From: a virus
DNA: 33,345 bases
IMG/VR virus record: IMGVR_UViG_3300044846_001967
Coordinates: 1 to 33,345 of that record
Direction: 5' to 3' (one strand)
The first letter of the stretch is position 1; each line of letters starts with the position of its first letter. The notes below the pieces were generated by a model, which saw only the letters and a list, made by a program, of their open reading frames with translations, ran no database searches and was not told the DNA's origin. This document shows, piece after piece, positions 22,678-33,345 of this stretch. A program made the translations under genes and the position numbers.

Positions 22678-22803
22678 TTATTTGCTTAAAAGGTTGTTTA
22701 ACTTGATTCGTAATTGGATGGCTTGATTTGAGTTCCATCCGTGTTTTGCCGTTGCCTCAGCATGTTGCATTTTTGTTTTTTCGATTCTTACTGCTTTTTT
22801 CAT
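22678..22803 (-). CDS. Short early protein, 41 aa
   Basis: A 41-residue basic helical peptide (MKKAVRIEKTKMQHAEATAK, then QAIQLRIKLNNLL). It is the first frame after the leader terminator, 35 nt downstream of the T run, with 26 nt between its stop and the next ATG. Short helical proteins of this kind are common in Bacteroidota phages; its function is unknown. Confidence 0.5.
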   Translation of the reverse strand: MKKAVRIEKTKMQHAEATAKHGWNSNQAIQLRIKLNNLLSK

Positions 22804-22837
22804 TTTTCAAAATTTAAGTGGTTATACTATATAAAAC

Positions 22838-22868
22838 AAAAAAGGGGTGAATCTCTCGACCCACCCCC
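22838..22868 (-). terminator. Intrinsic terminator or attenuator before the early genes
   Basis: On the minus strand GGGGTG (22867-22862, read as CACCCC on plus) pairs with CACCCC (22849-22844) around a 12-nt loop, followed by six T. It lies between the promoter at 23019 and the first early gene. Confidence 0.75.
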
Positions 22869-23015
22869 TGAATTTTGTTTTGCTTAATGTTCACCCTTTG
22901 TCACCGATGTAGGCTCCCGAAATGGGCATGTACAATCGGTGTGAACTTGTTTCCGTGATTTCAATGAACGCTCCCTCTCACCCCACCGCCACAATCACCC
23001 CCCTCAACCATCGAC
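22838..23015 (-). ncRNA. Candidate structured small RNA or leader (attenuator) of the early operon
   Basis: About 175 nt between a consensus promoter and an intrinsic terminator, with no supported gene. From 5' to 3': a G-rich segment; GTGATT (22998-22993) paired with AATCAC (22960-22955); a long hairpin with GTTCAC (22946-22941) paired to GTGAAC (22894-22889) and ACCGAT (22940-22935) to ATCGGT (22908-22903), continuing TGTA/TACA and CCC/GGG with an ATTTC loop and an 8-nt one-sided bulge; then the terminator. It could be a stand-alone phage RNA or an attenuating leader for the early genes. Confidence 0.6.
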
Positions 23016-23079: not shown

Positions 23080-23144
23080 CTCGGAATCCCCTATAAACAT
23101 AGGCGAAAATTTTTTGAAATTTTTTTTTGAGGGTATAAATGGCC
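23080..23144 (-). repeat. Intergenic regulatory repeat, partial copy D
   Basis: Keeps the end of the element: TTCCGAGG and a dyad CCTAT-GTTT-ATAGG in place of CTATG-TGG-CATAG, followed upstream by TACCCTC. It directly abuts copy C and lies about 30 nt upstream of the -33 box of the early promoter. Confidence 0.6.
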
Positions 23145-23162
23145 CAGTGTGTAAGATGGTCG

Positions 23163-23275
23163 CTCGGAAACCCTAGCCCACATAGCAAAACGCACATCTC
23201 CAATTTTTAATGGTGTTACCTATGCGAAGGGGTAAAGTGCGTTAAATCGCCTTAAAATGGCCTTAAATCAAATCG
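23163..23275 (-). repeat. Intergenic regulatory repeat, copy C
   Basis: Aligns without gaps with copies A and B; 81 of 110 positions match copy A by hand count. Three 11-nt units on the minus strand (TTAAGGCCATT, TTAAGGCGATT, TTAACGCACTT) give one-turn periodicity. The hairpin part is weaker than in the other copies. The 583-nt gap from 22804 to 23386 also holds copy D, the early promoter, the structured RNA and two terminators. Confidence 0.8.
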
Positions 23276-23386: not shown

Positions 23387-23974
23387 TTAAAACTCCTTTA
23401 GCAAACAATATGAGACCGATTTTCCACTTTGCATCGAAAAATATTTCATCAATACAACGTATTTTTGGGTGTCATTTATGACCTGACATCCTGCACTCCA
23501 CCCCTCAATTTTCTCCCTGATGGTCGTGTTTGTCATGTCATAAGTGTTCGCATGGAGGTTAATTCCAAAGTATCCTGAGACCTCTTTTCCGAGTTCCTCC
23601 GACTTGACATCGCCGTCACCATCCCTGAAAATTGTCACAGGCGCCCCAATTTGTACAAGGGCATTCATGCGTTTTTTGTGCTTACCATACCTCCAAATGT
23701 TGTGATGCCACATGTCACTTTTGAGTATTGCGGCCCCCATTGGATTGTATGATTTGTATCCTCCGCGCAGGATTGATGATGCAGGATTTGTGGTACCAGT
23801 GACCATCATCAAAAACTGCTCACCTTTGTAAAGGTATATTTTATCATCAAACTCATCAGGTAGGTCCGCTTTTGACCTCACTCCGATGAGCCATAGTGAC
23901 TCAGGTATCCCCTTAAATGTTGGTAGTGATTTTACCCTGTCGAGTAGTTCCTTATCCGTGTATTTTCGTACCAT
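23387..23974 (-). CDS. Putative endolysin (YkuD/L,D-transpeptidase-like)
   Basis: A 195-residue protein in the lysis position, after a holin candidate. The C-terminal part has NLHANTYD (H141) and GWSAGCQVIND (S160, C163), resembling the His and S-x-G-C motif of YkuD-fold enzymes. I recall phage proteins with an INxHRxxx...SAGCQV pattern annotated as peptidoglycan hydrolases. No signal peptide is present, so release would depend on the holin. The start overlaps the preceding membrane protein, and a strong terminator follows. Confidence 0.6.
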   Translation of the reverse strand: MVRKYTDKELLDRVKSLPTFKGIPESLWLIGVRSKADLPDEFDDKIYLYKGEQFLMMVTGTTNPASSILRGGYKSYNPMGAAILKSDMWHHNIWRYGKHKKRMNALVQIGAPVTIFRDGDGDVKSEELGKEVSGYFGINLHANTYDMTNTTIREKIEGWSAGCQVINDTQKYVVLMKYFSMQSGKSVSYCLLKEF

Positions 23975-30883: not shown

Positions 30884-33345
30884 TTACGTACTTTAAATCG
30901 ATTAAACGTCACGGAATTGCCTCTCACGCGCTTTTCCACTATCTCTACCATGGATTGAGTTATCTCACCCAATCCGATTGATGTCTCAGGTTTTTCCTTA
31001 ATTACCTGTTTCAAATCTCGCATCTCATTAATCAGGAGTGAAAACTCCAAAGCGGATGCGGACTGAGTTGCCCCATCCATCGCCCGACCATTTTGGTACT
31101 CCTGAGCCACCTTGGCCAATTCAACATTGGATAGCGCTCCGATTTTTTCATTTAGGTTTTTAGGTATCACTCTCTCATTGGGATGGAGGACCGCATGAAA
31201 TCCACCTTTGCCATCCACTCCGCGACCATTCACGCCAGTGTCCTCAGTACCCTCAAGGAATGTGGGTAGGGATGATATAAACTGCTGCAATAGGGTCGTG
31301 TCCCTGATGGTTTCCGCTAATGGATTTTTACTCCCTGATTCCAATTTTTGCGAATACGTTGAGTAGATGGATTCCGCTAATTTTATCCTTTGTTGCCGCT
31401 TTTGTTCTCTCTCCTTTTTTAGGTTTGCCTCATCAATGATTCGTTGTTGCTCCGCGAGTGATTGCTGCGCAGTAATGTTTCCATCCTTGGCTAATTGTTC
31501 TAATCGGTCCTGTTCTTTTTCAGCCGCCGCGATTTCCTTGTCGATTTGATTGATTCGATTTTCGGATATTTTATTGAATACATCCGCAGTCGCTTTGATG
31601 ATTTCCCGTTTTTGTTTCTCGCTTTCCTTTAGCAAATCCAATTCCGATTTGGCGGTCTTTTCCGAGTCCTCGAGTAGGTCCTTATTTCGGCTTTTTTGGC
31701 TATTCAAAAGGTCATCATTTGTCGAATCGATAAACTCGATTTTTTCGCGCTCCAATTCCATGATGTTGTTTGTCGCCTCCTTGGCTACGATTAGATTTTC
31801 TGAGTTCAAATCGGCATATATTTTAGCCTCATCCTGAGTGAGTTTTTCCTGTGCCTTTTTGTAATTATCATCGATTATCTTTTTTGCCTCGGCATTACCC
31901 TCCGCCGCTTTCAGTAATTGAGCGTATTCGTCATCGAGCGCCTTTTTCCTGTCGATTTTATCCTGTTCGTACGTGAGTAAATTTTGCTCCTGTTCAAAGT
32001 CGGCTAATTTCAAAATTCTCTCGACCTCAAGTTTGTATTTTTCCTCTACCAATGCATTAAAATTGGTCAAGTCATATTCACCCGTTTGGTCTACTTTTTC
32101 GTTTTGTAATTCGACCTCATCCTTGATGGCATCCGATAGGATTTTGATTTTTCGTTTGTTCTCAATATCGGACAATTTGTTGAGCAATTCAGCCTGTTTG
32201 CTGATGTAATCATTACCCTTTTCAAATTGGGTATTCAATTCCTCTAATGATTTTGCTTGGTCGATATTTGAATCGGTATTATTATCGGATGATAAAAAGT
32301 ATTTTTGTCCTCCATTGGTCAAATCATCCAAACGGCCCTCCGCATTTTGCATCGCCAAAGCGTAACCATCAAACCTGTTTTTAGTAAATTCAAGTTCCTT
32401 TTGTAACTCCGCCTGTTTTCTACGTGCATCCGCAGCCGCCCCCATTCGACCCGTTGCCGTTTCACCCTGAATCGTCATGTTTAATTTTTGGATTTCGTTC
32501 TCGAGTTGCATTTGTTTATTGAAATTGTTTTGCATCGCCTCATTTAGAGATTGTGCTTTGAATTTCAGTTTTAATGCTGCTATGTATTTCTTTACCTCAT
32601 TATTAATCGAGTTTTGAAAATTAGCCTCATCCCTCATGTTTTTTAAGGTAGTCCCATACTTGCCATTTATCTCACTAATCAGTTTGCTCCTTTCCTTAGT
32701 CCCTGCATTGGTTTGTTTTAGTTGACTTGCCAATTTAAGGAACTCCACTCCCTCCTTTGCCACATATTCGGCCTGTGCTTTTTGAGATTTTAATCGAGCC
32801 GCATTGATTTCCTTATTACGTTGCTGCGCCTCATTTACTTTTTGTTGACGGGAGTATAAGGCATACAAAGCGATACCCAATGCGGTAACACCTGCGACCA
32901 CTAACATCACAGGATTTGCGAGTAATGCCGTATTGAATGCATACTGCGCACCTGTAGCCACCTCGGTAGCCGTTGCCTCAGCGATTGTGGCCCCCGTGTT
33001 TGCGATTGTTGCGGCCGTTTCCTCAGTCGTAGCCAATGCGTTTGCCTCAGTAAGCAAAACACCCTCAGCATCCACCAAATTACCTCCCTCGTTTGCTGCG
33101 ATATTGGCCTCAGTTGCGATGGTATTTGCCGTGACTGATGCAGTGTTTTGATTCTCAGCGATGGTTTGTGCCGTTGTGGCCGCTACATCCTGAGTTTTTA
33201 CCTGTACCAAAATACCTGATTTCAGCGCAGCCGCCGTGATTCCTGTTTTGATTTCAGTGAGCGCATCCTTTAGGCCACCGAGGGCGCCCATAGCATCCGC
33301 CAAACCTGCTAAGGCCTGTAATTGTTGTATGTTTTTTAGTGTATC
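30880..33345 (-). CDS. Tape measure protein, C-terminal part (continued from 1)
   Basis: The remaining roughly 820 codons of the tape measure. An internal Met at 33303 mimics a start, but the frame is open through it to the window edge. An Ala/Thr/Asn-rich stretch is followed by one strongly hydrophobic segment (around ANPVMLVVAGVTALGIAL), long Lys/Glu/Gln-rich coiled coil, and a C-terminal section with the GVDGKGGFHAVLHPNERVIP signature that I associate with tape measures of Bacteroidota phages. The TGA stop overlaps the GTG start of the next gene (GTGA). At about 1.5 angstrom per residue the full protein suggests a tail near 170 nm; that figure is inference from the general ruler rule. Confidence 0.92.
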   Translation of the reverse strand, partial: DTLKNIQQLQALAGLADAMGALGGLKDALTEIKTGITAAALKSGILVQVKTQDVAATTAQTIAENQNTASVTANTIATEANIAANEGGNLVDAEGVLLTEANALATTEETAATIANTGATIAEATATEVATGAQYAFNTALLANPVMLVVAGVTALGIALYALYSRQQKVNEAQQRNKEINAARLKSQKAQAEYVAKEGVEFLKLASQLKQTNAGTKERSKLISEINGKYGTTLKNMRDEANFQNSINNEVKKYIAALKLKFKAQSLNEAMQNNFNKQMQLENEIQKLNMTIQGETATGRMGAAADARRKQAELQKELEFTKNRFDGYALAMQNAEGRLDDLTNGGQKYFLSSDNNTDSNIDQAKSLEELNTQFEKGNDYISKQAELLNKLSDIENKRKIKILSDAIKDEVELQNEKVDQTGEYDLTNFNALVEEKYKLEVERILKLADFEQEQNLLTYEQDKIDRKKALDDEYAQLLKAAEGNAEAKKIIDDNYKKAQEKLTQDEAKIYADLNSENLIVAKEATNNIMELEREKIEFIDSTNDDLLNSQKSRNKDLLEDSEKTAKSELDLLKESEKQKREIIKATADVFNKISENRINQIDKEIAAAEKEQDRLEQLAKDGNITAQQSLAEQQRIIDEANLKKEREQKRQQRIKLAESIYSTYSQKLESGSKNPLAETIRDTTLLQQFISSLPTFLEGTEDTGVNGRGVDGKGGFHAVLHPNERVIPKNLNEKIGALSNVELAKVAQEYQNGRAMDGATQSASALEFSLLINEMRDLKQVIKEKPETSIGLGEITQSMVEIVEKRVRGNSVTFNRFKVRK
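33224..33345. repeat. Terminal overlap, right copy
   Basis: Second copy of the sequence at 1-122. The three differences change two tape-measure residues (Ile and Ala here, Leu and Thr in the left copy). All three fall in the 17 bases furthest from the shared join, as expected when assembly stops at a site that varies in the phage population. Confidence 0.93.

Follow-up and report, generated by a model that had tools for sequence, protein, structure and literature searches.

The window, by which we mean the whole 33,345-base virus record analysed here, carries all of its named genes on the minus strand. Bases 21-120 are a direct repeat of bases 33244-33343, so that the two ends share about 100 bases, and the genome is therefore probably complete, circular or terminally redundant; taken together with the common strand of the named genes, this repeat makes it probable that the complete genome is read from the leader region described below. 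Following the minus strand from 22803, small early genes give way to a DnaD-like helicase loader, a helicase, NinG, Erf, an exonuclease and ParB, then to terminase, portal, protease and major head protein and, across the ends of the window, to tape measure, tail proteins and an endolysin-like protein ending at 23387. Among named phages, one large protein of the window has relatives in Flavobacterium phages only, and the window is a Bacteroidota phage. Searches found no relatives of the downstream 195-aa protein, and no endolysin in the genomes in which one was looked for. Within the gene array, terminator-like hairpins with T runs occur at 14765-14741, 11653-11632 and 2205-2188 (minus strand), with no consensus promoter recognised after them; processive antitermination may act on them.

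The endolysin gene and the first early gene are separated by a stretch that holds a Bacteroidota-type promoter, TTTG-N21-TATATTTG (23051-23019, minus strand), with TTTG at 23051-23048 and TATATTTG at 23026-23019. This promoter class lies outside the coverage of the sigma-70-type promoter scan and was read directly, as in the original prediction, and a promoter of the same type occupies the same place in the related phages L002-L008, L056, L057 and L363. Upstream of the promoter, a noncoding block at 23105-23230 (minus strand; TGCTATGTGGGCTAGGG in the window) resembles the sequence at the same place in L002, L006-L008, L056 and L057, among phages both with and without the RNA described below, and could be an operator, an origin or a packaging site.

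A predicted structured leader RNA ending in a terminator

The promoter leads into a predicted leader RNA, or small RNA, of ~178 nt (22836-23015, minus strand), both ends of which are inferred: the start lies a few nt past the -7 element and the end was placed in the T run. About 175 nt had been predicted to lack a supported gene, and the stretch indeed holds no minus-strand ORF of at least 40 aa; an 84-aa ORF that crosses it on the plus strand was rejected, being broken in the closest relative and not conserved. The 5' part of the leader (22971-23014, minus strand), common to the window and L002 only, is rich in G and might form a G-quadruplex.

Further into the RNA lies a compound hairpin (22946-22889, minus strand) with all the arms that had been named in advance, GTTCAC/GTGAAC, (C)ACCGAT/ATCGGT(G), TGTA/TACA and CCC/GGG, and with a conserved 4x4 internal loop, CATG/AGCC. 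When the 13 pairs of the inner hairpin were compared between the window and L002, every one of the four variable pairs had changed on both sides (A-T to C-G, T-A to C-G, C-G to G-C and C-G to T-A, window to L002) and none was broken or left unpaired, the remaining difference being one loop base. The outer GTTCAC/GTGAAC stem is identical in the window and L002 and is thus uninformative on covariation. In the more distant phage L056 the apical stem and the internal-loop letters ACATG/AGCCT recur. These compensatory changes and this recurrence indicate that the compound hairpin is a real RNA structure, a claim that energy alone would not carry, since the 181 nt as a whole fold with an unremarkable energy (z = -1.08). 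A separate 6-bp stem, also proposed originally, found no support.

The RNA matches none of the 4227 Rfam families scanned, GOLLD and 6S included, above gathering threshold anywhere in the window, and sub-threshold matches at relaxed settings were at chance level. A DNA similarity search of the region in named phages returned one chance match, and in IMG/VR the exact hairpin string and a degenerate hairpin pattern retrieved only L002, L056 and one chance match in apparent coding DNA. L003, L004 and L005 carry a different RNA, in which a long helix surrounds a common core, CCAACCAANGC/GCAGGCGGG; by eye and without a formal count, the letters of this helix are quite different in L004 and L005, yet paired in both.

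The leader ends in an intrinsic terminator (22838-22869, minus strand), AGGGGGTGGGTC-GAGA-GATTCACCCCTT followed by a T run, in agreement with the six T foreseen (22843-22838); its stem of 12 pairs is the longest among the terminator-like sites found in the window. The first gene past it, ORF1 (22678-22803, minus strand), encodes a basic protein of 41 aa and starts with an ATG at 22803, 34 nt after the T run, where about 35 nt had been estimated. Promoter, RNA signal and terminator thus stand before the operon. A consensus search of the phages that share this arrangement recognised no other promoter between the terminator and ORF1, nor farther downstream in the operon direction over the stretch searched, which leaves the absence of another ORF1 promoter unproven because the consensus is loose (control counts for the bare pattern are similar). 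In L006 and L008 the extended promoter sequence is repeated at a second promoter ~1 kb downstream, and no such second promoter was found in the phages that carry the leader.

A boxA signal shared with host rRNA leaders

The most informative part of the leader, missed in the original prediction, is a boxA, CGTTCATTGAAATC (22957-22970, minus strand). We derived a boxA profile from 80 Bacteroidota-type 16S loci, 75 of which had leaders long enough and 67 of which gave a site (consensus AGTTCATTGACATA); scores above 9 bits were reached by 85% of real 16S leaders and by 2.4% of shuffled ones. The best match to this profile on either strand of the whole 33-kb window falls at 22970-22957, with 16.9 bits, a score like those of host rRNA-leader boxAs and one reached by 0 of 2000 shuffled leaders. 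For the window and L002-L004, 0-1 of 2000 shuffles reached the score of the phage's own boxA, compared with 4 for L005 and 39/2000 for L056, whose boxA is the weakest at 10.4 bits. The element is not predicted to be especially unpaired.

All six phages show G[TCG]TC[AT]TTGAAAT after the promoter; boxA is kept in L002, L003, L004, L005 and L056, in RNAs that otherwise differ. These sites are also close to the E. coli and gammaproteobacterial boxA consensus, GYTCTTTAANA (PMC5725501). Judging by its letters, then, the leader carries the boxA signal that the host uses in rRNA transcription.

Presence of boxA goes together with that of the terminator. The window and five related phages (L002, L003, L004, L005 and L056) have both, with promoter, boxA, structured RNA and terminator in front of the same ORF, whereas L006, L007, L008, L057 and L363 have neither, and only some 25-40 nt separate their promoter from the first ORF; because the phages are related, these are not eleven independent events. 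In relatives that lack the leader RNA, ORF1 directly follows the promoter, and ORF1 is therefore not tied to the leader. Position, recurrence in relatives and compensatory changes thus support the original description of this segment: a structured RNA that opens the early operon and has a promoter and terminator of its own.

A model for antitermination at the head of the operon

We propose that this segment is a promoter-proximal, nut- or put-like antitermination leader that uses host Nus factors, a reading to which we give a probability of roughly one half and which we favour because boxA sits between the only recognisable promoter and the terminator guarding the first gene. Host RNA polymerase would start at the Bacteroidota-type promoter and transcribe boxA ~45 nt into the RNA, where host NusB and S10 (NusE), with other Nus factors, would bind in the same manner as on rRNA leaders and make the polymerase resistant to termination. 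The converted enzyme would read through the strong intrinsic terminator in front of ORF1 and remain processive over the one-directional gene array of ~33 kb, and polymerase that escapes conversion would stop and release a short RNA of ~178 nt. The phage would in this way probably borrow the host read-through machinery to switch on its genes.

In E. coli, antitermination by boxA alone acts mainly against Rho-dependent termination and not against strong intrinsic terminators, and read-through at this locus would therefore need extra RNA structure or a phage protein. The Rho part of the E. coli mechanism is described in PMC5725501. As for a phage protein, we looked for a NusG-like antiterminator gene and found none, and identified no other antitermination protein. 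The structured RNA between boxA and terminator, which is rapidly exchanged among the phages, may provide contacts that boxA alone lacks, comparable to those of boxB or the put stem-loops. Promoter, boxA match, covarying hairpin, terminator, gene order and the joint occurrence of boxA and terminator are observed, whereas Nus binding, read-through and the part played by the hairpin are inferred.

Promoter plus boxA across viral contigs, and alternative explanations

Searching IMG/VR for the promoter followed by GTTC[AT]TTGAAAT gave at least 120 matches, 80 of which were fetched. Only 20 of these 80 lie within ORFs of at least 300 nt and 13 have a tRNA or tmRNA within 700 nt, while a scrambled-boxA control over the whole collection gave 45 matches, 40 in ORFs and none near a tRNA or tmRNA. 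Since the control is almost all coding, promoter plus boxA marks a real transcription-unit head in these viruses. Among the matches listed, GOLLD lies on the same strand in 11 of the 32 loci scanned, and about eight of the fetched matches lead, by eye, straight into an ORF. In phage contigs, promoter plus boxA therefore heads mostly noncoding RNAs and sometimes mRNAs. The strict pattern occurs once, at an uncharacterised site, in six host genomes. There is as yet no cultured example, as crAss001, B40-8, FCL-2, the part of DAC16 searched and Fpv5 all lack a match.

Several groups of matches deserve mention in their own right. GOLLD RNAs with a Bacteroidota-type promoter and boxA were seen in L190, L196-L199, L206, L209, L212, L223, L234 and L247; the GOLLD model starts 405-470 nt after boxA in 10 of the 11 loci, a near-constant distance that suggests a 5' end for these RNAs. 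An apparent structured-RNA family (AGTAGCAAACGAATCTTAAATATAGGAAACTAGACGCGCACCCTAGCG...) directly follows promoter plus boxA in L204, L218, L220 and L226, with no Rfam match in L218 or L220, and a second apparent family (ATTGTTTAAAAGCAATTCACACAGGGAAACAAAACGC...), likewise without an Rfam match, does so in L202 and L261. In L200, L215 and L259, promoter and boxA directly precede a conserved small ORF with no terminator between, which places boxA in the predicted 5' end of a phage mRNA. A group of similar architecture (L201, L207, L224, L232 and L236) was left out because it seems to show Shine-Dalgarno and sigma-70-like features of a non-Bacteroidota phage.

This census speaks against an antitermination leader insofar as promoter plus boxA elsewhere in phage contigs heads noncoding RNAs more often than mRNAs. 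The segment might accordingly be an RNA gene, encoding a discrete, abundant structured RNA of ~178 nt that acts in trans and carries boxA because Bacteroidota phages put boxA at the head of untranslated RNAs, with the operon living on terminator leakage or on a promoter that escaped detection. Its own promoter and terminator, its covarying hairpin and the GOLLD, tmRNA and tRNA-array loci among the matches listed all fit such a gene. Its place, after the one promoter that can be recognised and before the first gene, does not, nor does the finding that close relatives have quite different RNAs here and others none, which is unusual for a defined role in trans; an RNA of 178 nt would also presumably need little protection from Rho. 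We regard an RNA gene, which would be the abundant small RNA of the original prediction, as the main rival: possible, if on balance unlikely. The two are in any case compatible, as polymerase that escapes the terminator would make the operon and polymerase that does not would make the short RNA.

The original prediction also raised an attenuator or a riboswitch-like leader. In such a device the RNA would switch between alternative pairings in response to a ligand or protein, and the pairing adopted would determine if the terminator can fold. The position before a terminator suits this device, and the covarying hairpin has an invariant internal loop that could bind such a ligand or protein, but pairing of the upstream RNA with the 5' arm of the terminator was no better than in shuffled sequences in all six phages (in the best case 31 of 300 shuffles did as well), and Rfam gave no riboswitch or leader match. 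That the segment decides entry into early transcription is still plausible; a device of this kind is improbable, and antitermination by Nus factors through boxA is the likelier one. Least credible of all is a decoy, a short terminated RNA whose boxA, with a score like that of host rRNA leaders, would titrate host NusB/S10 and lower rRNA synthesis during infection, for each transcript would offer a single boxA to host factors that are abundant, and the position before ORF1 would be left unexplained.

With antitermination as the preferred reading, a wider proposal can be made, though tentatively and as one we think more doubtful than the leader itself: Bacteroidota phages may mimic host rRNA transcription, with the rRNA boxA heading early operons as well as GOLLD, tmRNA, tRNA arrays and unnamed structured RNAs, and with exchangeable RNA modules letting polymerase read through intrinsic terminators with no specialised antiterminator protein from the phage. 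Because boxA is recognisable in sequence, it makes the question of how these phages hold polymerase on long gene arrays open to experiment; as a search key, promoter plus boxA finds both known phage noncoding RNAs, GOLLD among them, and unnamed ones.

Comparison with known systems

To our knowledge, antitermination signals have not been described in Bacteroidota phages, and a literature search found no description either: judged by titles and abstracts, with subscription literature outside the scope, nothing relevant turned up for boxA with Bacteroidetes, Bacteroides or tmRNA, or for crAssphage antitermination. The lambda PR'-6S RNA-tR' leader resembles the window in its order of promoter, short RNA of similar size, intrinsic terminator and operon, but it is controlled by Q at a DNA site with no involvement of boxA. 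HK022 put RNA is likewise a structured leader where early transcription begins, and one that may need no phage protein; put, however, has two stem-loops and no boxA, where the window has boxA and one compound hairpin. For put, the RNA alone suffices (PMC9378689).

Lambdoid nut sites (boxA plus boxB, with N protein) share with the window a boxA and then a hairpin near the early promoter, followed by a terminator. In place of a boxB of ~15 nt just after boxA, the window has a large hairpin with a 4x4 internal loop that spans 58 nt and starts ~11 nt after boxA; no N-like protein was recognised in it, and ORF1, small and basic, is found in phages without boxA as well. GOLLD RNA genes of Bacteroidota-type phages are, in the contigs retrieved, also headed by promoter plus boxA, though the window RNA is far smaller and has no GOLLD match; boxA goes unmentioned in the paper on the GOLLD structure (PMC12286853). 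Regulation by boxA outside rRNA is known, in work that, by its authors' own account, left noncoding RNAs out of consideration (PMC5725501). With rrn boxA antitermination, in which NusB/NusE act on rRNA leaders, the window has in common a promoter-proximal boxA in an untranslated leader and a sequence that matches the Bacteroidota 16S profile; here, however, boxA heads a phage early operon and is followed not by rRNA but by a covarying hairpin and an intrinsic terminator.
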